NCBI GenBank assembly: GCA_035314825.1
Contig: DATFYX010000024.1
Coordinates: 1-38,659, forward strand
From: Candidatus Eremiobacteraceae bacterium
Lineage (GTDB): Bacteria; Vulcanimicrobiota; Vulcanimicrobiia; Eremiobacterales; Eremiobacteraceae
DNA: 38,659 bases
Direction of reading: 5' to 3'
Under the pieces are notes generated by a model. The model was given only the letters and a program-made list of their open reading frames with translations, had not been told where the DNA came from and searched no databases. Made by a program: the position numbers and the translations under genes. Shown here piece by piece: positions 27,453-38,659 of the stretch. Position 1 is the first letter of the stretch; each line of letters opens with the position of its first letter.

Positions 27453-27471
27453 TTCGCTTGTGGAATCGATG

Positions 27472-27544
27472 CTCCCCGAGTTGGACCCGAACTAACGACA
27501 TTCTGATTAACAGTCAGACGCTCTACCAGCTGAGCTATCGGGGA
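27472..27544 (-). tRNA. tRNA-Asn(GTT), T-arm irregular
   Basis: The gene is 73 bases and folds as a tRNA: a 7-bp acceptor stem (TCCCCGA with TCGGGGA), D-arm GCTC/GAGC with loop AGCTGGTA, and anticodon arm TCTGA-CTGTTAA-TCAGA, giving anticodon GTT. The discriminator is G and CCA is not encoded. The T-arm is GTTAG-TTCGGGT-CCAAC, with an A-C mismatch in the stem and G in place of the near-universal A58. The second tRNA-Asn at the window end has GTTGG-TTCGAGT-CCAAC and encoded CCA. This copy may be functional but weak, or decaying. Confidence 0.85.
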
Positions 27545-28318: not shown

Positions 28319-28936
28319 TTACGGAGCGGTGACGACCGTGTAGTAGAGTCCGTTGGCTCCGTACGCAGGCTGGAACCATGTGGTACCGCAGACAGTATAC
28401 GTCACACCCGACACGACTTGAGCGGCGCAACCCGTTGCCGGCACCGTGGCCGTCCTTTCGCCGATCGAATACGCGACTGCCGCTCCCGCGACCGCAGCGC
28501 CGGCGATGCAGCCGGCACAACTCGAATAACAATTGTAGCAGCCGGCGGCGTATACCGGGGGCGGCGGGGGATAGCCGTAGTAGCCGCCCGTGTGGTACGC
28601 GCTGTTGTACGTCGCCGAGGTGGTGCCGCCGTACGTGTTCGTGTGCGTCGCACCGTTGCCGTACTGCCCTGACGTCGTGCCCCCGTAGACATTCGAGTGC
28701 GTGGCTCCGCTCCCGTACTTGCCCGAGGTGGTGCCGCCGTACGTGTTCGTATGCGTCGCACCGTTGCCGTACGAGCCCGACGTGTGGCCGCCGTAGGCGT
28801 TCGTATGCGACGTCGAGTCGTAGCTGTGCGACGTGCTGCCCCCGTACGCGTTGGCATGAGCGTAGGCGAACGCGGGGCTGCACTGCAACGCGCCCAGCGC
28901 GAGTCCGAGTGCTCCTATGGCGATCTTCTTCAACAT
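28319..28936 (-). CDS. Secreted protein with four 18-residue YGG repeats
   Basis: The protein is 205 residues. Signal peptide: KKIAIGALGLALGALQCSPA up to AFA. Residues 43-114 are four tandem 18-residue units, of the form THTNTYGGTTSGKYGSGA. Then come a Pro-Tyr segment, a Cys-rich patch (CYNCYSSCAGC), a glycine-zipper-like hydrophobic stretch (IAGAAVAGAAVAYSIG) and the C-terminal motif VTYTVCGTTWFQPAYGANGL, found in many small exported proteobacterial proteins. Three ATGs in a row occur (28942, 28939, 28936). The AGAGGA ribosome site is correctly spaced for the last. The repeats may form an extended, surface-exposed polymerising or adhesive region; that is inference. It is 25 bases after the DUF2092 gene. 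Confidence 0.8.
   Translation of the reverse strand: MLKKIAIGALGLALGALQCSPAFAYAHANAYGGSTSHSYDSTSHTNAYGGHTSGSYGNGATHTNTYGGTTSGKYGSGATHSNVYGGTTSGQYGNGATHTNTYGGTTSATYNSAYHTGGYYGYPPPPPVYAAGCYNCYSSCAGCIAGAAVAGAAVAYSIGERTATVPATGCAAQVVSGVTYTVCGTTWFQPAYGANGLYYTVVTAP
28595..28810 (-). repeat. Four tandem 54-bp coding repeats
   Basis: Four contiguous in-frame 54-bp units (216 bp) encode residues 43-114 of the secreted protein. The nucleotide copies are similar, for example the shared GTTCGT(A/G)TGCGTCGCACCG stretch on the plus strand, so the array may change copy number by slippage or recombination. Confidence 0.85.
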
Positions 28937-28961
28937 CATCATATCCTCTTGAGATCTCTTT

Positions 28962-29777
28962 CTAGGAATTCTTCTTCGGTGCCGGCGTGGGCCCGGGCCA
29001 CGGATGCTTGAATGGGATACGTTTTGCGTTAGCGGCTGCGCCTGAGCTGAACGCGTCGGCTCCCACGACCGGGTCGATCTGCCAGTCGGAGAACGCAAGC
29101 TCGTGGCGCAACTGCGCCGGATCATTCAGATATACCGCGCGCACGAGACGCGGCAGCTTGTCATCCGCGCCGATCCACACCTGCTCGAAGACTCCGAACG
29201 CGACGTACGCGACCACATCGGTCGTCGTCCCACCGACCACCTTCGATTGACCGACGTAATAAGCAAGTTTGAGACCCGGCGAGAGATCCGTGTATGGATC
29301 GGTGACGATGACGTCCGTGAACGGGAAATAGGTCCCCGAAAGCTTGTAGGCCGCTTCGAGCATAGTGTCAATCGTCGCGGGAGCCGGCGAGACGGCGGCC
29401 AGGTTTTCCGTCGGAAAGTACCCGGTGACCGTCTTTCCGTCGTAGTAGTATTCGCGAGGCGACCCGTCTCCAGGCATGATGATGCGCAGCTTATCAGGGC
29501 GCACGAGCGTCACTTGATACTGGGTCGAGGATGCCAGTGGGTGCCCCTGGCGGCTGGGCTGCTCGAAGATCTCCAGGGCGGCGAACGACATGCTCTTGGC
29601 CGCCGCCAGCCGCGCGCTGCTCGCTTTGAGGATGTCCAGCGCCCTTGGCTCCAACGGAGGCGGGGTCGCGGTCGGCCGCGGCGTGGGCTGCGCTGCCGTG
29701 GCTTGGTGGGCCAAACCGAAAACGGCCGGCCCGAGCAGCAACAGCGCGATGAGGACGCGCCCTATGGTCGTTCTCAT
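28962..29777 (-). CDS. DUF2092-like exported (LolA-fold) protein
   Basis: The protein is 271 residues. A signal peptide (IGRVLIALLLLGPAVFGLAH) is followed by a Pro/Thr-rich linker. A domain of the DUF2092/LolA-like type comes next: RALDILKASSARLAAAKSMS, then QYQVTLVRPDKLRIIMPGDG, EYYYDGKTVTGYFP and VWIGADDKLPRLVRAVYLND. These proteins are predicted periplasmic half-barrels that may bind lipids or hydrophobic ligands. ATG 29777 with GGAGA is preferred to ATG 29822. It leads the three-gene run of exported proteins, 163 bases after the maturase gene. Confidence 0.85.
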   Translation of the reverse strand: MRTTIGRVLIALLLLGPAVFGLAHQATAAQPTPRPTATPPPLEPRALDILKASSARLAAAKSMSFAALEIFEQPSRQGHPLASSTQYQVTLVRPDKLRIIMPGDGSPREYYYDGKTVTGYFPTENLAAVSPAPATIDTMLEAAYKLSGTYFPFTDVIVTDPYTDLSPGLKLAYYVGQSKVVGGTTTDVVAYVAFGVFEQVWIGADDKLPRLVRAVYLNDPAQLRHELAFSDWQIDPVVGADAFSSGAAANAKRIPFKHPWPGPTPAPKKNS

Positions 29778-29940
29778 GTTCTCCAGCTCTCTATTTCGCC
29801 TTGACGTGGTGGACTCGACCACCCAGAGGGTGTTCTGTTGCGAAACCGCGGCTCATATCCTCCACTTTACGCCGGGGTAGGTGATACGTAGGAAGAACCG
29901 CTGTCAACTCCCACGGGGCAACGTCGCCCTCGAGATACCC

Positions 29941-31260
29941 TCAGTTCGTTTTCGCGGCGACGGCGTTTGCGCCGTGGCATTTCTTATACTTTCTGGAGCT
30001 TCCGCAAGGGCAAAGCTCATTGCGGCCGGCCTTCGCGAATGCCGATGCGCGATCGCGTGTGTGCTCGGCGGCGAGCAGAGGCATGACGCCTTTGGCTTCT
30101 TGTCCTCGCTTCAGGAACTCGCCGATGAGCCGCATCGGTCTATCGATGTGATGGAAGAACGCTTTGTAGCCTTCGCACAGGTAATTCAGGCCTTGCTCGC
30201 CATCCGGGGTGGTGATGAAGCGATTCTTCGGACATTCGCCGTGACAGGCGAAACGCACGTCGCATTCTCGGCAATATTTCGGAAGCGATTCCAGCTTCGC
30301 ACGCCCGAAATCACGCTGAAAATCTGAATTGACCATCTCCCTCATCGGGCGTTCGCCGATATTGCCGAGCAAGTATTTCGGTTCGACGAAATGATCACAA
30401 GAGTAGAGATCGCCATTGTGCTCCAGCGCGAGCCCGGCTCCGCAAGTCGCATCGAACACACACATGCCGGATGGCAATCCTAGCCAGCTTCTTGCAGCTG
30501 CCTCAAACGTCTGCACGAAGACCTTCCCCACGTCGTAGCGCACCCACTCGTCAAAGACCGCGCTGAGGAAGTCGCCCAGCTGTTTGGGCAGCACGGATCG
30601 CTCCGAGACCTTCGATCCTTGTTGATACAGCGTCCGTCCATCGTCGTTCACGCGCTCGATGACCGGGATGAACTGGATCCATGTCGTCCGGGCCTCGTCG
30701 CGCAAGAAGCGATACACCTCGAGCGGGTGATCGCCGTTCACGCGATTGACCGTGGTCAGGATGTTGTACTCGACGCCGTGCTTTTGAAGCAGCCGTAGGC
30801 CGCGCATCACGTTGTCGAACGTCCCACGCCCGCCCTTATCAACACGATTGGTGTCGTGAAGCTCACGCGGTCCATCGATGCTGATGCCGATGAGGTAGTT
30901 GTTGGCCTTGAAGAACTCGCACCATTCGTCGGTCAGCAAGGTGCCGTTCGTCTGCAGCGTGTTCTCGAACACCATGCCCGGCTTTTTGTGTTTGTTCTGG
31001 AATGCAATCGCACGGCGATAGAAATCGACGCCCATGATCGTCGGCTCACCGCCTTGCCACGCCACGGTCACGTGGTTGCTGCGGTGCCCTTCGATCAACT
31101 GCCGGATGTAGGTCTCGAGCATAGCGTCGTCCATCCGGAACCGGCTCCCCGGATAGAGTTGTTCTTTGTCTAGAAAAAAGCAGTAGGAACAATCAAGGTT
31201 GCAAATCGCCCCTGCCGGTTTCGCCATCACATGAAATCGCGATAGAGTCCGTTCATCCAT
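29941..31260 (-). CDS. Radical SAM/SPASM anaerobic sulfatase maturase with SEC-C tail
   Basis: The protein is 439 residues. The radical SAM cluster motif is CNLDCSYC (Cys20, Cys24, Cys27). VAWQGGEPT and QTNGTLLTDEWCEFF are the SAM-binding and barrel strands, and IGISIDGPRELHD is typical of sulfatase-maturating enzymes. The SPASM auxiliary clusters are formed by the cysteines of MCVFDATCGAGLAL, LYSCDHF and KYCRECDVRFACHGECPKN. Such enzymes convert the Cys or Ser of a sulfatase active site to formylglycine. A C-terminal SEC-C metal-binding motif, GRNELCPCGSSRKYKKCHG, is an added feature, usually seen in SecA and assorted bacterial proteins. It lies 69 bases after the HAD pair, and its probable client is the CTPTR sulfatase at 36972-38432. 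Confidence 0.92.
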   Translation of the reverse strand: MDERTLSRFHVMAKPAGAICNLDCSYCFFLDKEQLYPGSRFRMDDAMLETYIRQLIEGHRSNHVTVAWQGGEPTIMGVDFYRRAIAFQNKHKKPGMVFENTLQTNGTLLTDEWCEFFKANNYLIGISIDGPRELHDTNRVDKGGRGTFDNVMRGLRLLQKHGVEYNILTTVNRVNGDHPLEVYRFLRDEARTTWIQFIPVIERVNDDGRTLYQQGSKVSERSVLPKQLGDFLSAVFDEWVRYDVGKVFVQTFEAAARSWLGLPSGMCVFDATCGAGLALEHNGDLYSCDHFVEPKYLLGNIGERPMREMVNSDFQRDFGRAKLESLPKYCRECDVRFACHGECPKNRFITTPDGEQGLNYLCEGYKAFFHHIDRPMRLIGEFLKRGQEAKGVMPLLAAEHTRDRASAFAKAGRNELCPCGSSRKYKKCHGANAVAAKTN

Positions 31261-31329
31261 TTCCTATAGGATAGTGCCGGCTCTCTCCTTCGCGTATGAA
31301 GCCCGTGAGAAAAAGTGGTGATGCCAGAT

Positions 31330-32394
31330 CTACGACCCGAAGGCGAAGAGGCGTTTCCAGTCCTGCTTCATGCTGATGACGGACCACTTTCGGGCCTTCG
31401 CCTCATCATAGAGCGCCTGGGTAAACGTGCCGACCTTCGTATCCGGCAGGCCCGTGGCCGGGCCGTAGGCATATTCGCGTTGTGCATCGTCATGCAACAC
31501 GAGCATCATCAAGCACGCCCCGCCCCCTGACTGCGTGTACTCGAGCATCTGCTGATCACCGGTCGAGTTGCCGAACGCCGCTTGCGGCGGGCCTCCGATG
31601 AACAGATAGATATCCTCGGCTTTGCCCGACATGTTGTCGTTTAGCTCCAGCTTCGGCGCCCGCATCAAGACCGTCTGTCCGTTCTTGCCGTAGGTGTATT
31701 GCGTCTCGACCGCGGACCCGATGATTTGCCGGGATGGGATGCCGTACACGCGATCGCTATAGGCGCGGACGAAATCTTGACCGCCTCCGGTCACGATGTA
31801 GGTCATATAGCCGTTGGCACGCAGGTAGCGCATCACCTCAAGCATCGGCAGGTAGACAAGGTCGGTGTACAGATGGTTCCAGCGGGGCTGCTTCGCTGTG
31901 CCGATCCAATCCGCTGCTATGGCGCTGAATGCATTCACAGACATCCCAGTGTGGGTGGCAAAGACGATCGCTTCGAAATCCTTCACGGTGAACTTGGCCA
32001 TCGCAGCTTTGTCGCCAGAGAGCACCGACTTGAACGGCTCTGTGGTTTTCCACTCCGGATGCTGCGGCGCCAGCGCGATGACCCGATCGAACGCGAACAC
32101 GACTTGCGTATATATCGGGTGCTCAACCCACATGGTGCCGTCTTGATCAAAGGTGGCGACGCGTTGTGAGGGCGCGACGTACTTGGGATTGGAGCTGTCC
32201 GTGGTGACGCGCACGAATTCGAGGATCGCCTGCTTCGCCGCGCCATCGTTCCAGGACGGCAGCGGATCGGAGCCCGCTTCGCCGGTGAGCCCGACGGTTG
32301 CGAGCAGCGCGCCGCCGAACGCCAAGAACTCTTGGCGCGCCATTGCGCCGGGGCGGCCGCTTGGACGACTGGGTAAACCCTTGATTCGCTTCAT
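31330..32394 (-). CDS. HAD-superfamily phosphatase-like hydrolase (copy 1, probably exported)
   Basis: The protein is 354 residues. HAD motif I is ATFDQDGTMW (Asp83 nucleophile, Asp85 acid), the motif II region is YIVTGGGQDF, and the motif IV region is AFGNSTGDQQM. The N-terminus is basic, with ARQEFLAFGGALLATVGLTG resembling a degenerate Tat or Sec signal, so it may be exported. It is closely similar along its length to the gene before it. Both share VEHP(I/M)YTQ, ALAPQHPEWK and the final QALYD..A...W.VISMK. Its ATG overlaps the stop of copy 2 (ATGA), which indicates coupled translation. The substrate is unknown; phosphoserine-phosphatase-like annotations are not specific. Confidence 0.88.
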   Translation of the reverse strand: MKRIKGLPSRPSGRPGAMARQEFLAFGGALLATVGLTGEAGSDPLPSWNDGAAKQAILEFVRVTTDSSNPKYVAPSQRVATFDQDGTMWVEHPIYTQVVFAFDRVIALAPQHPEWKTTEPFKSVLSGDKAAMAKFTVKDFEAIVFATHTGMSVNAFSAIAADWIGTAKQPRWNHLYTDLVYLPMLEVMRYLRANGYMTYIVTGGGQDFVRAYSDRVYGIPSRQIIGSAVETQYTYGKNGQTVLMRAPKLELNDNMSGKAEDIYLFIGGPPQAAFGNSTGDQQMLEYTQSGGGACLMMLVLHDDAQREYAYGPATGLPDTKVGTFTQALYDEAKARKWSVISMKQDWKRLFAFGS

Positions 32395-33362
32395 GATGTT
32401 CTCCCTGATGTCGAAGCCTCGAAGGCGAAGAGGCGCTTCCAGTCGTTTTTCATACTGATGACGATCCAGCCCTTGGCCTTCGCGTCGTCATACAGCGCTT
32501 GAGTGAAGGTGCCGAACGGCGTGTCGGGCAGCCCGGTCGCCGGCCCGTAGAGATACTCCCGCGCCGCGTCGTCATGGAAGACGAGCATCATGAGGCGCGC
32601 GCCGCGATTCCCGCTCGTATACTCGAGCATCGCCTGATCACCCGTCGAGTTCCCGAACGCCGCGTGCGGACGGCGACCGAGAAAGAGGTAGATATCTTCG
32701 GGCTTGGCAGCGACGTCGTTAAAGAGAAGAATATCAGGCTGCTTCATGAGGACGCCGCGGCCCTCTGAATCTGACACATATTCAGTCTTGGCCGCAGAGC
32801 CGATGACGTGCTCTGGGGGTACTCCATACACCTTTTGCGCGAACGCGCGCACAAACGCTTGGCCTCCGCCGGTGACGAGATACACTCGGAAACCGCTGGC
32901 ACGCAGATAGTTCATCACCTCCAGCATGGGCTGGTAGGTGAGCTCCGTGTATGGCCTTCCCCAGCGCGGATCTCTCGCTTTCGCGATCCAATCGGCGACG
33001 ATCTCGGCAAACGCCTCGGTCGTCACTCCGGCATGCGTCGTCATCACGATCGCCTCTAGATCTTTCATGGTGAATTTCGACAGCGCGGCCTTGTCGCCCG
33101 CGAGCACCGACTTGAACGGCTCGGTGTTCTTCCACTCAGGATGCTGTGGCGCCAGCGCCACAACCCGATCGAGCGCGAAGACGAGTTGCGTGTACATCGG
33201 GTGCTCGACCCACAGCGTGCCATCCTGATCGAAGGTCGCGAAGCGGTCTTCTTCCCGCACGAAATCGGGGCTCGCCTTGTCGGTCGCCCTCTGCACAAAA
33301 TCTACGATTGCCGCCTTCGCGGGCCCCTCGTTCCATGAAGGCAACAGGTCAGCGACGGTCAT
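32391..33362 (-). CDS. HAD-superfamily phosphatase-like hydrolase (copy 2)
   Basis: The protein is 323 residues and is the tandem paralogue of the following gene. It has the same catalytic parts: ATFDQDGTLWVEHP (nucleophile and acid aspartates), YLVTGGGQAFVRAF and AFGNSTGDQAMLEY. It differs in beginning directly at MTVADLLPSWNEGP, with no signal-like segment, so it is probably cytoplasmic while copy 1 may be exported. ATG 33362 is used; GTG 33365 directly before it would add one residue. It follows the outer-membrane factor gene after 53 bases and is likely part of the same transcript. Confidence 0.88.
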   Translation of the reverse strand: MTVADLLPSWNEGPAKAAIVDFVQRATDKASPDFVREEDRFATFDQDGTLWVEHPMYTQLVFALDRVVALAPQHPEWKNTEPFKSVLAGDKAALSKFTMKDLEAIVMTTHAGVTTEAFAEIVADWIAKARDPRWGRPYTELTYQPMLEVMNYLRASGFRVYLVTGGGQAFVRAFAQKVYGVPPEHVIGSAAKTEYVSDSEGRGVLMKQPDILLFNDVAAKPEDIYLFLGRRPHAAFGNSTGDQAMLEYTSGNRGARLMMLVFHDDAAREYLYGPATGLPDTPFGTFTQALYDDAKAKGWIVISMKNDWKRLFAFEASTSGRTS

Positions 33363-33415
33363 CACGGTGCTTTCCGTTCCACGTGCCTAGGTTCACCTCG
33401 TGAAGACGCCTTGTC

Positions 33416-34831
33416 CTATGGACTCGGCGAGGGCTCGGCTGCGACCGGCTCCGGCTGCCAGCCGCCCCCCGTCGCATGGTAGAGCTGGACCAGAGCAAGC
33501 CGCTCGGCCAATTCGCCCTGGGACTGCGCGATCTCAGCCTCGTATGCGCGCGACTCGCTGTCCAGCACCTCGAGATACGAGGTCTGGCCGTTCACGTACC
33601 TGATATTCGCGAGCTGCAGCGACTTCAGCGCAGCCGCACTGTTCGCCGCCTGCGCCACGGCGTATTTCCGATTGAGATCGTAGGCGATTAGCGCGTCTGC
33701 GACATCGCCCACGCCTTGATGGATCGACTGGACGTATTCGAGGACCGCCTGCTCTTTCGCGGCCTGCGATTTCGTCACATTGGCGTGAGCTGCGCCGGTG
33801 TTGAACACCTGCTGCACGATCTGCGGCAGGATCGAAATCGCGCTCTCGGGATAGTTGACGCCGTTGATCTGCGCGGTGCCTGCGCCCGCGGCCGCGCCGA
33901 TCGTGAACTGAGGGAAGAGCAATGCGCGCGCAACCCCGATCTGCGCGTTCGCGGCGATGAGGTTCTCCTCGGATGCTCGGATGTCTGGGCGTTGCTCGAG
34001 CAGCGCCGATGGCAGGCCCGCCGAGGGCACGGCCGGCATCGCGACCTGCGATTGCAGCGGCAGCCCGCGGGGGATCGAGCCAGGGTAGTTGCCCAACAGG
34101 ATGCTGAGCGCGTCCTCGACGGTCGCCGCGTCTCGCTGAATCAGGAGGATCGACGCGGTGACCTCCGCGACGAGTTCCTGGGCCTGCGCGACGTCCTGGA
34201 GGCCGTTCTTGCCTGCATGGTATCGCTCCAGCACGATCTTCAGGCTCTGGTTGCGCGACCGCAGCGCCTCTTGGGAGATGGCGAACTCCACATCGAGCTC
34301 GCGCAATTGGAAATAGAGACTCGCGACCGATTTGACGACGCTCGCCGTCACCGTCTCGCGCGCGAACTCCGACTGCAGCACCTGTGCGGCAGCCGATGCC
34401 GTCTCGCTGTGCACCTTGCCGAAGAGATCGACCTCGTACTGCAGCGTCAGCAGCGCCACAGGGATGAACTCTTCGCGCGGGATGAACGCGTTTTCGGGTC
34501 CGTCCGTCTTGGAGTACTGCGCGCTTGCAACCGCGTTGATCTGTGGATATCGGTTGCCGCTGACGATCGTCAGCTGCGCCTGCGCCTGCTGCACGCGTTG
34601 CATCGCGATGCGCACGTCGTAGTTCTGCGCCACCGCGGTCCGCAACAGCGTCTGCAACTCCGGGTCCTTGAATATCTCCCACCAGCCGAGCGCTCCCATC
34701 GGCGGCATCGTCTGCGATTGGGTCTGGTCCCGATACGCCGGCGGCATGGAGGCGTCAGGCCGCACGTACGCAGGTCCAGAACAAGTCGAAAGTAGCTGGA
34801 GAAGCGCGAACGTCGCGATGGCGAGTTTCAT
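33416..34831 (-). CDS. NodT/TolC-type outer-membrane efflux factor
   Basis: The protein is 471 residues, the usual length. The N-terminus has a signal sequence with a degenerate lipobox (LLSTC), followed by the NodT-type start GPAYVRPDASMP and WWEIFKDPELQTLLRTAVAQ. The two OEP repeats are visible: NYDVRIAMQRVQQAQAQLTI leading to YEVDLFGKV, and QRPDIRASEENLIAANAQIG leading to the helical hairpin and TSYLEVLDSESRAYEAEIAQ. It forms the trimeric outer-membrane channel of a tripartite exporter and implies a diderm envelope. It stands 27 bases after the adaptor gene. Confidence 0.93.
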   Translation of the reverse strand: MKLAIATFALLQLLSTCSGPAYVRPDASMPPAYRDQTQSQTMPPMGALGWWEIFKDPELQTLLRTAVAQNYDVRIAMQRVQQAQAQLTIVSGNRYPQINAVASAQYSKTDGPENAFIPREEFIPVALLTLQYEVDLFGKVHSETASAAAQVLQSEFARETVTASVVKSVASLYFQLRELDVEFAISQEALRSRNQSLKIVLERYHAGKNGLQDVAQAQELVAEVTASILLIQRDAATVEDALSILLGNYPGSIPRGLPLQSQVAMPAVPSAGLPSALLEQRPDIRASEENLIAANAQIGVARALLFPQFTIGAAAGAGTAQINGVNYPESAISILPQIVQQVFNTGAAHANVTKSQAAKEQAVLEYVQSIHQGVGDVADALIAYDLNRKYAVAQAANSAAALKSLQLANIRYVNGQTSYLEVLDSESRAYEAEIAQSQGELAERLALVQLYHATGGGWQPEPVAAEPSPSP

Positions 34832-34858
34832 GGCATCACGTCAAAGGTGCGCCCGCCA

Positions 34859-36154
34859 TCAGAACGGGATCGGATACAACCAGTTGAGCCATGTCTTCGT
34901 CCTGATGTCGATCTTGCGCAGAGCCGCCCAGGGGCCGCTGCTCTGCGCATACACCGCTGCCACGCCTTGCGCGCCGATGGGGAACCCGGCAGGGGCAGGC
35001 TCGTCCTTGGTCGGCTGGTCCATGAAGATCTGCACAGCGAACTGGTTTTGCGGCAGGTTCGGGTTCGCGGGAGAGAATGTAGGAATGACATCGCTCGGCA
35101 GATATTGCCCTTGGCCGTTGGCGTACCAGATGCTGCCGACTTTCGCCGTGAAGATCTGTCCAGGATACAGATTGAGCGCGACCTCGACCGGTTGGCCCGC
35201 CTTGACATACTTGAGGACTTCTTGGTTGAAGGTGGCAAGGAGATAGCGATCCGCATCGACGACGAACGTCGCGATGCCGCCGACCCGCACGATACCAGAA
35301 ACCATCCCCGGCCGGACCTGCACGTTGATCATGTGGCCGTCCGCGGGCGCCACGATCGTGGTGTTGTCCAAGTAGTAGTGCGCGAGCGCGAGCTGGCCTT
35401 TGGCGGCCTTCACGTTCGCGATCGACGAGCTCAGGTTGGCCCGGCCCTGTGCCAAGGCTGCCTGCGCGCTCGCGACCACCGTATTGACGCCGCCGATCTG
35501 CGATTCGTACTCAAGACGAGCGCGCTCAACGCCGGCCTGCGCCCCTTTGATCTCGGCGCGGTCGGCACTCACTTGGGCATCCCATTTTTGGACGTCTTCG
35601 ACCGGGCCTGAACCAGTGCGCGCGAGCCTCGCGGAAAGGTTTTCCTCATATTGCGAGTACTTCAGCTCGCTGCGTCCTTTGACGACCCGCTGCTGTGCTG
35701 CGTCCAGGTCTGCTTTGAGCACACCGACCTGCTGCCCGGCCGCGGCGAGTTGCGACTGGAGCTGCGCGACATCGTATTGTGCGGTGGTCACTTTCGCGGT
35801 ATCGGCGTCAAGCTGCCCTTCGGCTTGTCTGACCTGGAATTCGTACGGGCGCCGATCGAGCTGGAAGAGCGGCTGTCCCTTCTTCACAGGAACATTCTGC
35901 TGCGCCAAGACAGCGGTGACGAGCGTAGGTTCGGGCAGGCGGGGGATCAGCTGAACCGTATACTGGACGATCTTTGCGTCGGACGACTGCGGAGTCGCGA
36001 ACCGCACCCCGATGAGAACGCCGAGAAGGATATGAAGTATGATCAAGCCCGACACGACCGCCCACGCGGGACTGAACTTGAGCCATTTGAACCTGAAGAA
36101 GACGAGCCAGATGAACAGGAGGTAGCCGACCGTGATGATGATGATGATCCCCAC
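34859..36154 (-). CDS. HlyD-family periplasmic adaptor (YiaV/YibH-like)
   Basis: The protein is 431 residues. Two hydrophobic segments open it (IIIIITVGYLLFIWLVFFRF and AVVSGLIILHILLGVLIGV). Then come the lipoyl half NVPVKKGQPLFQLDRRPYEF, a long coiled-coil hairpin (about 110-240), the second lipoyl half (IVAPADGHMINVQVRPGMV) and a beta-barrel with YLLATFNQEVLKYVKAGQPV. The adaptor links an inner-membrane partner to the outer-membrane factor. With the DUF3302 protein just upstream it matches the E. coli YiaWV/YibIH pairing. No MFS, RND or ABC transporter gene is in the operon, so the energy source is unknown. Its start is seven bases after the DUF3302 stop. Confidence 0.92.
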   Translation of the reverse strand: MGIIIIITVGYLLFIWLVFFRFKWLKFSPAWAVVSGLIILHILLGVLIGVRFATPQSSDAKIVQYTVQLIPRLPEPTLVTAVLAQQNVPVKKGQPLFQLDRRPYEFQVRQAEGQLDADTAKVTTAQYDVAQLQSQLAAAGQQVGVLKADLDAAQQRVVKGRSELKYSQYEENLSARLARTGSGPVEDVQKWDAQVSADRAEIKGAQAGVERARLEYESQIGGVNTVVASAQAALAQGRANLSSSIANVKAAKGQLALAHYYLDNTTIVAPADGHMINVQVRPGMVSGIVRVGGIATFVVDADRYLLATFNQEVLKYVKAGQPVEVALNLYPGQIFTAKVGSIWYANGQGQYLPSDVIPTFSPANPNLPQNQFAVQIFMDQPTKDEPAPAGFPIGAQGVAAVYAQSSGPWAALRKIDIRTKTWLNWLYPIPF

Positions 36155-36160
36155 GCGCGG

Positions 36161-36526
36161 CTATGCCCCCGGCTCGTCGTTCGGATGCGTCGGCGGTTTC
36201 GTCGAGTCGGACGTTGGCGGAGCGGGCTCTCCCTTCAGCTTGGCGATCATGTCGCGGATGTTGCGCTGCTCCTGCTCGGGCAGGTAGCGGATGTCGACGA
36301 CGTCAGTCGGCTTAAACGCCCACATGAACGCTTGAATCCATGGAACGACCGCCAGAAAACCGAGCCATCCCATGAGGTTGACCGCATCCGCATCGGGATG
36401 CTTGCGCGCGATCGCGATTCGTCCTGGTAAGCCGAGAATGAAAACGAGCGATACCAAAAAGATGACAGCCAATAAGAACAGCACTGCAAATGTGATGAAA
36501 TCCCAGCCGTCTACTTTAAAACCCAT
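36161..36526 (-). CDS. DUF3302 membrane protein (YiaW/YibI-like)
   Basis: The protein is 121 residues. A helix, FITFAVLFLLAVIFLVSLVF, is followed by the family block LPGRIAIARKHPDADAVNLM and a second helix (GWLGFLAVVPWIQAFMWAF). The tail is charged and Pro-rich. The 'HP.ADA....GW' signature agrees with E. coli YiaW. In that pair DUF3302 accompanies a HlyD-like adaptor. Its role is unproven but may be to anchor or gate the adaptor. It is the first gene of the long minus-strand run and its promoter must lie in the 445-base gap. Confidence 0.88.
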   Translation of the reverse strand: MGFKVDGWDFITFAVLFLLAVIFLVSLVFILGLPGRIAIARKHPDADAVNLMGWLGFLAVVPWIQAFMWAFKPTDVVDIRYLPEQEQRNIRDMIAKLKGEPAPPTSDSTKPPTHPNDEPGA

Positions 36527-36705
36527 GTGGCCCTCAGGTGAGCTGGCGGACCACCTCGCCGCCTTGGTATCTCCTCCGTGCGTGCCCTAGTCGGAGAGAA
36601 GCAATGCGTCCCCTCGCAATAGCCTGTATGTGAAGTTCATTGAAAGATGCGAAGGAGTGTCAACGCCCGTAAGAGGCCGACGTTTCTTCCTGCGGCTATG
36701 TTCAA

Positions 36706-36754
36706 CCTACTACCGTTACAGAGGACCCGCACGCTCTGACGCAGTGCGGGTCTT
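36706..36754. repeat. Direct repeat copy 1 with decayed terminator hairpin
   Basis: CCTACTACCGTTACAGA is followed by a hairpin (ACCCGCAC/GTGCGGGT) and CTT. The 17-base left part and both hairpin arms are identical to copy 2 at 38549-38596. The two bases next to the hairpin (GG instead of AA) break the T-run that copy 2 has on the minus strand, so this copy is probably no longer an intrinsic terminator. Confidence 0.8.
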
Positions 36755-36775
36755 GGCTGAATTCTGACTAACGGT
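36752..36775 (-). pseudogene. Possible tRNA-Asn fragment
   Basis: Directly after repeat copy 1 come CTTGGCT (the complement of a tRNA 3' end reading AGCCAAG, as in the intact copy) and TTCTGACTAACGGT. The latter matches the anticodon-arm strand TTCTGATTAACAGT of the end-of-window tRNA-Asn at 12 of 14 bases. The region between them is lost. The match is short, so chance is not excluded. Confidence 0.4.
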
Positions 36776-36971
36776 GATTCACGCGCTTCGGGGGACCGCA
36801 TGGGCGGACCCGAGCTACGGCGGAGTTCCTTGGGCGATAGCCTCAATCCTGAGAACTTCGAAAAAGGGACGCCCACCTAACTCCTTCAATTTGCCCTGCG
36901 TCAAGTACCCCTGCTGTGCGCAGTTCTCGCGGTGCTGCCACTTACCCGCAATGACGTTCTGGAGGCATCCC

Positions 36972-38432
36972 ATGATCAAAGCTCGTTACTTAGTCGCCTT
37001 GCTTTGCGCGATCGCGCTTGCACTGAGCGCTTCGAGTCGAGCGGCACAGGCCGCCGACCAGAAGCCCAACATCGTGTTCATCCTGGTCGACAATGTCGGC
37101 TGGGGAACTTTTGGGGTGTACGGTGGAACAGTGGCCACGCCGCGCATCGACGAGCTGGCCAACAGCGGTATCCGTTTCAACAATTACAACGTGGAGGTGC
37201 AATGCACGCCGACGCGCTCGGCCATCCACACCGGGCGCTACTCGGTTCGGTCAGGGACATATACGGTACCCTTGCCAGGGCAAGGGCCGGGTGGAATGTC
37301 GCCGTGGGAATACACGATTGCCAAACTCCTCTCGGATGCCGGATACACCACCGCGCTCTACGGCAAGTGGCACCTTGGCGATACCCAGGGCCGTCTGCCG
37401 AATGACCAGGGCTACGACGAGTGGTGGGGCCTTCCGGAGACCTGGGATGTGGCCGGTTACACGTCCTATCCGCTGTTCAAGGAGAGCGGCGAGCCCGTCC
37501 CCATGCTGTGGGAGGGCAAGAAGGGCCAACCATCGAGACCGGTGATGCCGATCAACCTCAGCAATCGGGCAATCATGGATGAGAAATACATTATTCCGAA
37601 GACGATTGACTTCATCAAACGTAATGCAACGGCGAAGAAGCCGTTCTTCGTGTACGTCGGTTACTCAGAAATGCATCCACCGATGATCGCCAATCCGAAT
37701 TTTGCGGGTAAGTCCACGCAGCGCGGCGGCGTGTTTGCGGACCTGGTCGCCGAAATGGACTACCGCGTCGGCCAAATCATGGATGCCATCAAGGCGGCGG
37801 GCATCGACGACAATACCATCGTCATCCTCAGTAGCGACAATGGCAGCGGTGGGGCAATCCTGCAGCTTGGCGGAAGTGAGCAAGGGCCATGGCGCGGAGA
37901 TTTCTTCAACACGCCATTTGAGGGGAGCTATCGCGTGCCGGCGATGATCCGCTGGCCCGGGCATGTGCCTGCGGGTGTCGTCACGCAAGAAATGCTCGCG
38001 GACGTGGATTGGATGCCGACGCTGGCCGGAATGGTCGGTGCGCCGAATCTGGTGCCCAAGGACCGACCGATCGACGGCATCGATGCCTCTGCCTTCATGC
38101 TGGGGAAAAGCCCATCAACCGGCCGTGACAGCTATATGCTCTTCGATACGGACGCCCAGCTCATGTCGATCAAATGGAAGATCTACAAGACGATCTTTCG
38201 CTACACCGATGCGCAAATAAGACCCGCCATGGAGCAACCCTACGTAACGCCTGAGCTTCCCATGATCTACGACCTCAGCAGCGATCCGCACGAAGACAAC
38301 AACTTGTTCTATAGCGATCTGACGTGCGGTTGGATCCTCGGTCCGGACTTCAAGATCATCGGAGCATATGAGCGCAGCATAAAGGAGTTTCCGAACATCA
38401 AACCGGGCGAGGACTTCAAAGGCTATAGGTAG
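36972..38432 (+). CDS. Exported arylsulfatase (family S1, Cys-type)
   Basis: The protein is 486 residues. A signal peptide (YLVALLCAIALALSASSRAA up to AQA) is followed by the sulfatase core. NIVFILVDNVGWG carries the metal ligands Asp40 and Asn41 (classical enzymes have Asp-Asp). The formylglycine motif is CTPTR (Cys78 to Arg82). YGKWHLGD has Lys132 and His134, EMHPP has His235, and SSDNGSGG has Asp289 and Asn290. It hydrolyses a sulfate ester in the periplasm after Cys78 is converted to formylglycine. The only maturase candidate in view is the radical SAM protein at 29941-31260. ATG 36972 has GGAGG seven bases upstream; a frame starting at 36774 runs through non-coding sequence and is rejected. 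The natural substrate is unknown. Confidence 0.93.
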   Translation: MIKARYLVALLCAIALALSASSRAAQAADQKPNIVFILVDNVGWGTFGVYGGTVATPRIDELANSGIRFNNYNVEVQCTPTRSAIHTGRYSVRSGTYTVPLPGQGPGGMSPWEYTIAKLLSDAGYTTALYGKWHLGDTQGRLPNDQGYDEWWGLPETWDVAGYTSYPLFKESGEPVPMLWEGKKGQPSRPVMPINLSNRAIMDEKYIIPKTIDFIKRNATAKKPFFVYVGYSEMHPPMIANPNFAGKSTQRGGVFADLVAEMDYRVGQIMDAIKAAGIDDNTIVILSSDNGSGGAILQLGGSEQGPWRGDFFNTPFEGSYRVPAMIRWPGHVPAGVVTQEMLADVDWMPTLAGMVGAPNLVPKDRPIDGIDASAFMLGKSPSTGRDSYMLFDTDAQLMSIKWKIYKTIFRYTDAQIRPAMEQPYVTPELPMIYDLSSDPHEDNNLFYSDLTCGWILGPDFKIIGAYERSIKEFPNIKPGEDFKGYR

Positions 38433-38610: not shown

Positions 38611-38659
38611 TGGCTCCCCGAGTTGGACTCGAACCAACGACTTTCTGATTAACAGTCAG
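38611..38659 (-). tRNA. tRNA-Asn(GTT), 5' part beyond window
   Basis: The 3' two-thirds are visible: anticodon arm CTGA-CTGTTAA-TCAG (anticodon GTT), a perfect T-arm GTTGG-TTCGAGT-CCAAC with the conserved A58, acceptor strand TCGGGGA, discriminator G and an encoded CCA. The D-arm and 5' acceptor strand lie past the window end. It appears to be the intact counterpart of the copy at 27472-27544. Confidence 0.85.

Follow-up and report, generated by a model that had tools for sequence, protein, structure and literature searches.

A variant S1 sulfatase-like gene with genes for a probable maturase, two HAD proteins and a DUF3302-HlyD export set on a tRNA-Asn-bounded segment of an Eremiobacteraceae genome

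Results

Organisation of the locus

We analysed a stretch of 38,659 nucleotides (the window) from a Candidatus Eremiobacteraceae bacterium (assembly GCA_035314825.1, contig DATFYX010000024.1), in which a gene for a variant S1 sulfatase-like enzyme lies divergently to a row of minus-strand genes for a predicted export set, two phosphatase-like HAD proteins and an anaerobic sulfatase maturase (anSME). The window is an entire contig (C24) of a 2.55 Mb genome that is 97% complete and comprises 89 contigs. The sulfatase-like gene (36972..38432, plus strand) encodes 486 amino acids with a predicted signal peptide and the formylglycine signature CTPTR. Across a divergent intergenic region of 445 bases, read from the sequence (36527..36971), the minus strand encodes a small DUF3302 membrane protein of the family of E. 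coli YibI (36161..36526), a HlyD-type periplasmic adaptor (34859..36154), an outer-membrane factor of the NodT/OEP type (33416..34831), the phosphatase-like and predicted cytoplasmic HAD1 (32391..33365), its paralogue HAD2, predicted to be exported (31330..32394), and the maturase, a radical SAM/SPASM protein with a C-terminal SEC-C motif (29941..31260). The open reading frames bear out the seven genes, strands and gaps as first described, the minus-strand gaps amounting to 6, 27, 50, -4 and 69 bases, with the third being 53 if HAD1 starts at ATG 33362. This spacing suggests that the six minus-strand genes form a single transcript.

The sulfatase frame opens at GTG 36774, and ATG 36972 with GGAGG upstream is the most likely start as judged from the sequence; numbering from this ATG makes the cysteine of CTPTR Cys78, as originally proposed. 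A consensus promoter scan returned 3 sites compared to 2.3 (standard deviation 1.3) in shuffled sequence, and gave no promoter-like match inside the divergent intergenic region. Ten proteins encoded between 27.6 and 38.4 kb were scanned against family models, two of them matching no family, and no inner-membrane pump, uptake gene, regulator or integrase was found among the ten.

The sulfatase-like enzyme lacks the conserved active-site lysine

Against PF00884 the sulfatase-like protein scores 166 bits, and it carries the CxPxR signature (CTPTRSAIHTGR). Besides CxPxR, the KWH motif, the histidine and DNG are retained, and the nearest solved relatives by sequence are arylsulfatases. Its metal pair is Asp-Asn where most have Asp-Asp (Asp13-Asp14), and an equivalent of Lys375/Lys302 is missing, with F standing in the Lys375 column of an alignment that is gapped around the site. 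The structure model, with a mean pLDDT of 74, is too poor around the missing lysine to tell if some other residue stands in for it. The lysine at the AtsA-Lys375 position is present in 64 of 70 aligned sulfatases, all five Asp-Asn sequences being without it, and both changes recur in a paralogue of 53% identity on contig C3 of the same genome. The protein belongs to a variant S1 subfamily without the active-site lysine. PMC5066984 gives AtsA Lys375 as conserved in 96% of 4058 S1 sequences and terms it functionally important, while giving the second aspartate, Asp14, as conserved in only 76% of the S1 family. The original prediction had called the protein a sulfatase; PF00884 and CxPxR uphold the family, and the claim of activity is weakened.

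The radical SAM protein is a predicted sulfatase maturase

The radical SAM protein scores 488 bits with TIGR03942 (cut-off 349), matches PF04055, PF13186 and PF02810 and carries the radical-SAM motif CX3CX2C as CNLDCSYC; its closest solved relatives are 4k36/4k37. Cysteines 267, 273, 288, 330, 333, 339, 343 and 362, together with Asp289 following Cys288, are invariant in five sequences, and we take these cysteines to serve SPASM roles. Its sequence places the protein in the anaerobic sulfatase-maturase family, in support of what had been named a likely maturase. Identity as a maturase of ribosomally synthesised and post-translationally modified peptides (RiPPs) was considered and rejected, as the TIGR03942 score lies far above those of the RiPP maturase models.

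The genome encodes seven PF00884 proteins as well as the aerobic-type maturase FGE, which lies next to another sulfatase gene on contig C20 (L094 5817-6920), so that both maturation routes are encoded. PF00884 genes occur in every one of the 11 genomes that encode a close anSME, compared to 47 of the 149 genomes of the phylum set overall. The original prediction had the sulfatase depend on the maturase; this is weakened by the FGE of the same genome and by a same-genus genome (G021) that has four PF00884 matches without a close anSME (1e-60).

HAD1 and HAD2 differ in predicted location

HAD1 and HAD2, both matching PF12710, are 64-65% identical. HAD1 has a short N-terminus with in-frame stops upstream and no signal, and HAD2 has a hydrophobic N-terminus predicted to act as a signal; signal-peptide calls here and below follow a simple hydrophobicity rule, not SignalP. 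The catalytic residues D44, D46, G47, T48, K219, G240 and D241 are invariant in 20 sequences and represent the DxDGT nucleophile motif, the Lys of motif III and the GD of motif IV. The best solved match of the HAD1 model (pLDDT 92) is 4ovy, a HAD protein without assigned function, followed by the phosphorylcholine phosphatase 4as2 (E 4e-9, 16% identity).

A hydrophobic N-terminus is found in 81 of 94 parsed HAD rows, the window and its own phylum included and 9 further rows not being parsed, suggesting a mostly exported family. In a tree from which seven partial rows and L155 (>600 amino acids) were left out, and in which the bootstrap had not settled, HAD1 falls into a clade (100/98) of six sequences of its own phylum. 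Since all six are signal-less, a single loss of the signal at the origin of the clade is probable. HAD2 is placed, with weak support, beside L057, which has a signal, and L062, which has no clear one. Another signal-less HAD of the phylum, L070, sits on a long branch apart from the clade of HAD1. The signal-less form still adjoins a maturase gene. In three loci of the same phylum (L056, L059 and L060), all with HADs of the HAD1 clade, the signal-less HAD gene lies tail to tail with an FGE gene at a distance of 2-12 bases.

HAD genes adjoin sulfatase genes across phyla

Scanning named genomes with the HAD alignment gave at least 583 confirmed relatives, of which the loci of the best 80 were fetched; this choice was not random, and the profile with which sulfatases were sought in the 80 loci derives from their own sulfatases. 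Genes of relatives in GC-rich DNA were called by codon position, greedy longest-frame calling having given antisense frames. By their labels, the HAD tree rows come from 11 phyla in addition to the own phylum. An S1 sulfatase lies within 500 bases of the HAD in 39/80 loci and within 2 kb in 49/80, and 39 of these 49 pairs are on the same strand with the sulfatase upstream. Restricting the count to loci flanked on either side by 5 kb or more leaves a sulfatase within 2 kb in 31/49. The kilobase just upstream of the HAD holds a sulfatase midpoint in 28 of the 74 loci for which this kilobase was available, as against 0-1 of 54-61 in each of the bins 6-9 kb away. FGE occurs within 5 kb in 11 of the 80 loci and anSME in 2. 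The sulfatases at these loci are mostly of the CTAGR/CTPGR types with the lysine present. Named plasmid records of Ensifer canadensis and Rhizobium laguerreae show an arylsulfatase gene followed by a HAD gene. In a Planctomicrobium metagenome-assembled genome the sulfatase gene next to the HAD (L141 11076-12281) is interrupted by a stop codon or a change of frame and was excluded from the alignment.

DUF3302-HlyD pairs are linked to sulfatases

The DUF3302 protein scores 36.2 bits with PF11742 (cut-off 32; 36.7 bits in the genome scan) and is the sole candidate membrane partner for the adaptor in the locus. The outer-membrane factor matches PF02321 with 145 bits and TIGR01845 with 285 bits (cut-off 210). 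The HlyD protein scores below the cut-offs of PF16576 (25.7 vs 30), TIGR01730 (80 vs 95) and TIGR00998 (90 vs 391), MdtN-like matches also being below; the HlyD assignment is real, and a relative of 61% identity in G023 stands in the same DUF3302-HlyD-outer-membrane factor order.

Avoiding ascertainment via the HAD, we searched DUF3302 in 249 genomes of Hyphomicrobiales, the order of the Hyphomicrobium carrying locus L152, and obtained 22 over cut-off. G149 and G158, picked earlier for their HAD loci, were omitted, and two DUF3302 genes of G367 were treated as one locus and counted as a miss (nearest sulfatase 11.1 kb). With 124 PF00884 matches in 114 Mb of the compared genomes, a sulfatase within 10 kb is expected at 0.57 of the 22 loci and is found at seven, at five of them within 2.1 kb, corresponding to a Poisson P of about 2e-6, a rough value that ignores contig ends and sulfatase clustering. 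The 23 fetched DUF3302 pieces, counted with that of G158 and without L152, contain HlyD in 21, sulfatase in 7, FGE in 5, DUF1254 in 7, HAD in 2 and an outer-membrane factor in 1.

The arrangement nearest to that of the window is L152, reading FGE-sulfatase-HAD-DUF3302-HlyD. L222 and L224 read FGE-sulfatase-HAD-HlyD with DUF3302 detected at the same place, L221 reads FGE-sulfatase-DUF1254-DUF3302-HlyD and L159/L239 FGE-sulfatase-HAD-DUF1254-DUF3302-HlyD, and in L167 DUF3302-HlyD is divergent from sulfatase-HAD. An annotated Agrobacterium plasmid has arylsulfatase, alpha/beta hydrolase, DUF3302, HlyD and DUF1254 genes together, the arylsulfatase being one gene away from DUF3302-HlyD. The outer-membrane factor-HlyD-DUF3302 arrangement of the window recurs in L073, L236 and L242.

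A second recurrent neighbourhood of DUF3302-HlyD contains a SulP anion transporter and PPK2 (L183 7660-12981, L279 7654-12993, L217 9670-13825 and L241 9633-13520), the two being named in the annotation of L183 and L279, matched through Pfam in L217 and assigned only by look in L241; both annotated records also contain an AI-2E transporter.

Distribution within the phylum

Among 149 genomes of the phylum, own genome included, a HAD relative (E 1e-3) is present in 19, a close anSME (1e-60) in 11, a close sulfatase (1e-80) in 3, a close HlyD (1e-30) in 2 and DUF3302 over cut-off in 2. In G059 an exported HAD (68% identity) and an anSME (75-76%) are divergently arranged, and the same contig has a sulfatase 14 kb away. 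G023 has DUF3302-HlyD-outer-membrane factor on a 14 kb piece that contains neither HAD nor anSME, and here too the contig carries a sulfatase, at a distance of about 12 kb. As the modules are found apart in G059 and G023, the locus joins modules that occur separately in relatives.

The locus lies on a segment bounded by tRNA-Asn copies

The whole locus is contained in an 11 kb segment bounded by two tRNA-Asn copies. The left bound, copy B (27471..27544, minus strand, called by ARAGORN), has no CCA, differs from copy A at three positions and by eye shows a T-stem mismatch. The right bound is the 3' part of copy A (38613..38659, minus strand), an intact gene cut by the contig end: the last 47 bases of the contig match the 3' part of copy B at 94%, and the final 141 agree without a mismatch with the reverse-complemented end of contig C65, on which there is a complete tRNA-Asn including CCA. 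The promoter region upstream of the tRNA gene was duplicated along with it.

In the same-genus genome G022, C65-type genes are followed by tRNA-Asn and an M50 gene at a tRNA-M50 distance of 3.2 kb compared to 24 kb here, so that the segment is absent at the matching site; a deletion in G022 is possible, and the comparison covers G022, the site in G021 not being resolved. Elsewhere in the family, partial tRNA-Asn copies lie 0.9-19 kb from a full gene in G018 (L273/L274), G026 (L276) and G023 (L269), and integrase genes or fragments stand beside tRNA-Asn in G018 (L273/L274) and G016 (L267). The flanking tRNA-Asn copies, the spacing in G022 and the partial copies and integrases of the relatives identify the locus as cargo of a lineage-variable segment at a tRNA-Asn integration hotspot of the family. 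The ten proteins scanned in the segment include no integrase. A standard tRNA island with a 3' fragment was rejected, as both tRNA-Asn copies are full length.

Beside the maturase gene, the same segment carries a gene for a predicted periplasmic DUF2092 protein (28962..29822, minus strand; PF09865, 171 bits), whose role in the set is unproven, and a glycine/tyrosine-rich open reading frame (28319-29125). Relatives of the two adjoin a HAD in Xenophilus (L138 8411-9890), and a search of 13 further genomes of the family gave no DUF2092 match. Both may belong to the set.

Discussion

We favour, at a probability of about 0.45, a model according to which the locus is an accessory envelope module on a tRNA-Asn-bounded variable segment. 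The model builds on the observed gene content, family membership, predicted locations, linkage of the modules across phyla and the variable-region setting. In the cytoplasm, before export, the anSME would make formylglycine from Cys78 while the sulfatase-like enzyme is nascent; once in the periplasm, the enzyme would hydrolyse an ester, of sulfate or of another kind. There, the exported HAD2 could dephosphorylate this compound or one related to it, while the signal-less HAD1 would act likewise on whatever reaches the cytoplasm. DUF3302-HlyD together with its own outer-membrane factor would form an envelope conduit clearing the product, or the parent compound, from the cell. The single transcript, the enzyme activities, the substrate and the direction of transport are those parts of the model that we infer.

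Several observations weigh against this model. No pump gene of the MFS, RND or ABC type is found among the ten proteins scanned, and of the tripartite export set originally proposed the adaptor and the outer-membrane factor stand, a known pump being missing. Sulfatase activity is plausible, yet unproven and unsafe to assume, as a lysine conserved in 96% of S1 is absent here, and the anSME may not be the sole maturase and is perhaps not essential, given the FGE encoded beside another sulfatase in the same genome. A lack of conserved gene order in relatives had been named beforehand as a refutation, and it applies to the exact seven-gene order, which was found nowhere else, including among the 149 genomes of the phylum; the modules do recur. 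The two same-genus genomes, G021 and the only 72% complete G022, give no match to HAD, DUF3302 or DUF2092 and contain no close anSME, HlyD or sulfatase at the thresholds above; their other PF00884 genes number 4 and 1. The exporter of G023 stands without HAD or anSME. Among the 80 HAD loci, 27 show no sulfatase in the fetched DNA, 14 of these having flanks of 5 kb or more on each side, and a HlyD of the window type occurs in only five (L129, L141, L152, L159 and L167), DUF3302 being confirmed in three of the five. Of the 22 Hyphomicrobiales loci with DUF3302, 15 lack a sulfatase within 10 kb, and SulP and PPK2 adjoin some DUF3302-HlyD pairs instead.

The rarity of HlyD at HAD loci also bears on a rather unlikely alternative, namely a scavenging module in which sulfatase and exported HAD strip an environmental ester for sulfur, phosphorus or carbon and the exporter is an independent detoxification unit. 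Both enzymes are predicted to be exported, the nearest characterised HAD fold after 4ovy is a phosphorylcholine phosphatase, and SulP and PPK2 beside some DUF3302-HlyD loci suggest anion and polyphosphate handling, all of which would suit scavenging. Against it speak the lack of an uptake gene among the ten proteins scanned, for which reason we also rejected the uptake of a compound offered as one option in the original prediction, and a link between DUF3302-HlyD and sulfatases in Hyphomicrobiales that is too frequent for independence. Still less probable is a chance assemblage, in which a cargo-collecting tRNA hotspot gathered two unrelated units, the exporter on the one hand and sulfatase, maturase and HAD on the other. 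The segment is indeed lineage-variable and lies in an integration hotspot, and G023 and G059 show exporter without HAD and anSME, and anSME-HAD without exporter, respectively. However, the same units occur together in Hyphomicrobium, Bradyrhizobium and a gammaproteobacterial metagenome-assembled genome, the genes are tightly spaced, and even G023 and G059 have a sulfatase about 12-14 kb away on the same contig. By the HAD-sulfatase and DUF3302-sulfatase statistics the seven-gene set is not a chance neighbourhood; it is a meaningful one, parts of which recur across phyla.

It is improbable, though less so than a chance assemblage, that the putative sulfatase is another ester hydrolase of the alkaline phosphatase superfamily, e.g. 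a phosphodiesterase or phosphonate monoester hydrolase, with the HAD removing the remaining phosphate and the locus concerning phosphorus, not sulfur. The missing Lys375 equivalent, the change from Asp-Asp to Asp-Asn in the subfamily and the phosphatase-like partner enzymes point in this direction, whereas the solved structures nearest to the enzyme in sequence are those of arylsulfatases and the HAD-neighbouring sulfatases elsewhere are mostly CTAGR/CTPGR enzymes with the lysine. Phosphonate hydrolases have Asp-His at the second metal motif. The enzyme of the window has Asp-Asn there, as has the reference sulfatase AtsA, whose residues are taken from PMC5066984; that paper also describes formylglycine enzymes acting as phosphodiesterases (S1_0), in favour of such a hydrolase.

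The locus resembles several known arrangements in part. Sulfatase-maturase pairs as such are ordinary, known examples being aslA-aslB and ydeN-ydeM of E. coli and chuR of Bacteroides; the window likewise has an S1 sulfatase-like gene with CxPxR near a TIGR03942 anSME, to which the HADs and the export set are added, the sulfatase being of a variant subfamily. The Hyphomicrobiales loci L152, L222 and L224 share clustered sulfatase, maturase, HAD, HlyD and DUF3302 genes but have FGE instead of anSME and one HAD instead of two; moreover, the sulfatase of L152 is of the CTAGR type with the lysine, and no outer-membrane factor was detected in L222 and L224. No paper describing these FGE-sulfatase-HAD(-DUF3302-HlyD) loci was found in the open-access literature. 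The HAD proteins share a phosphatase fold with phosphorylcholine phosphatase PchP (4as2), differing from it by an identity of only 16%. Like tRNA-bounded genomic islands, the segment is accessory, lies between tRNA-Asn copies and occupies a hotspot that serves elements with integrases in relatives, differing in that no integrase was found and in having two full-length tRNA copies, not a full copy and a 3' fragment.

E. coli, too, combines small DUF3302 membrane proteins and HlyD adaptors, in the pairs YiaW-YiaV and YibI-YibH. These are not known to have a sulfatase linkage or an outer-membrane factor of their own. DUF3302 was detected in E. coli by a control search, and yibI is named as DUF3302 in a part of PMC7858067. 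We found no open-access paper on sulfatases with DUF3302 or with DUF1254 and no matching open-access title for an exported HAD partner or a DUF3302-HlyD partner of sulfatases. Neither plasmid records nor the open-access literature yielded a named system for this set, in line with the original statement that a described system with exactly these genes was not known to its author.

As a tentative generalisation, DUF3302-HlyD pairs, with or without their own outer-membrane factor, might be pump-less exporters that are mainly partnered with formylglycine hydrolases of the periplasm and the maturases of these enzymes. With the exported HAD they could constitute a widespread undescribed sulfatase-phosphatase-export system, which in this lineage would comprise an anaerobic maturase, a variant sulfatase without the lysine and two phosphatases, one in the cytoplasm and one in the periplasm. 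A part of PMC5066984 describes the sulfatases of known substrate as few compared to the diversity of sulfated compounds. An exported HAD partner across many phyla and a statistically linked DUF3302-HlyD pair would offer two handles on the substrates of sulfatase-type enzymes. We know of no role for DUF3302 in E. coli, and the linkage would be a first functional lead for this family, tying it to sulfate-ester chemistry. The lysine-less sulfatase subfamily would provide a testable exception to the accepted active site. The recurrence of pieces of this set in many unrelated bacteria points to a shared, unstudied role in the cell envelope.

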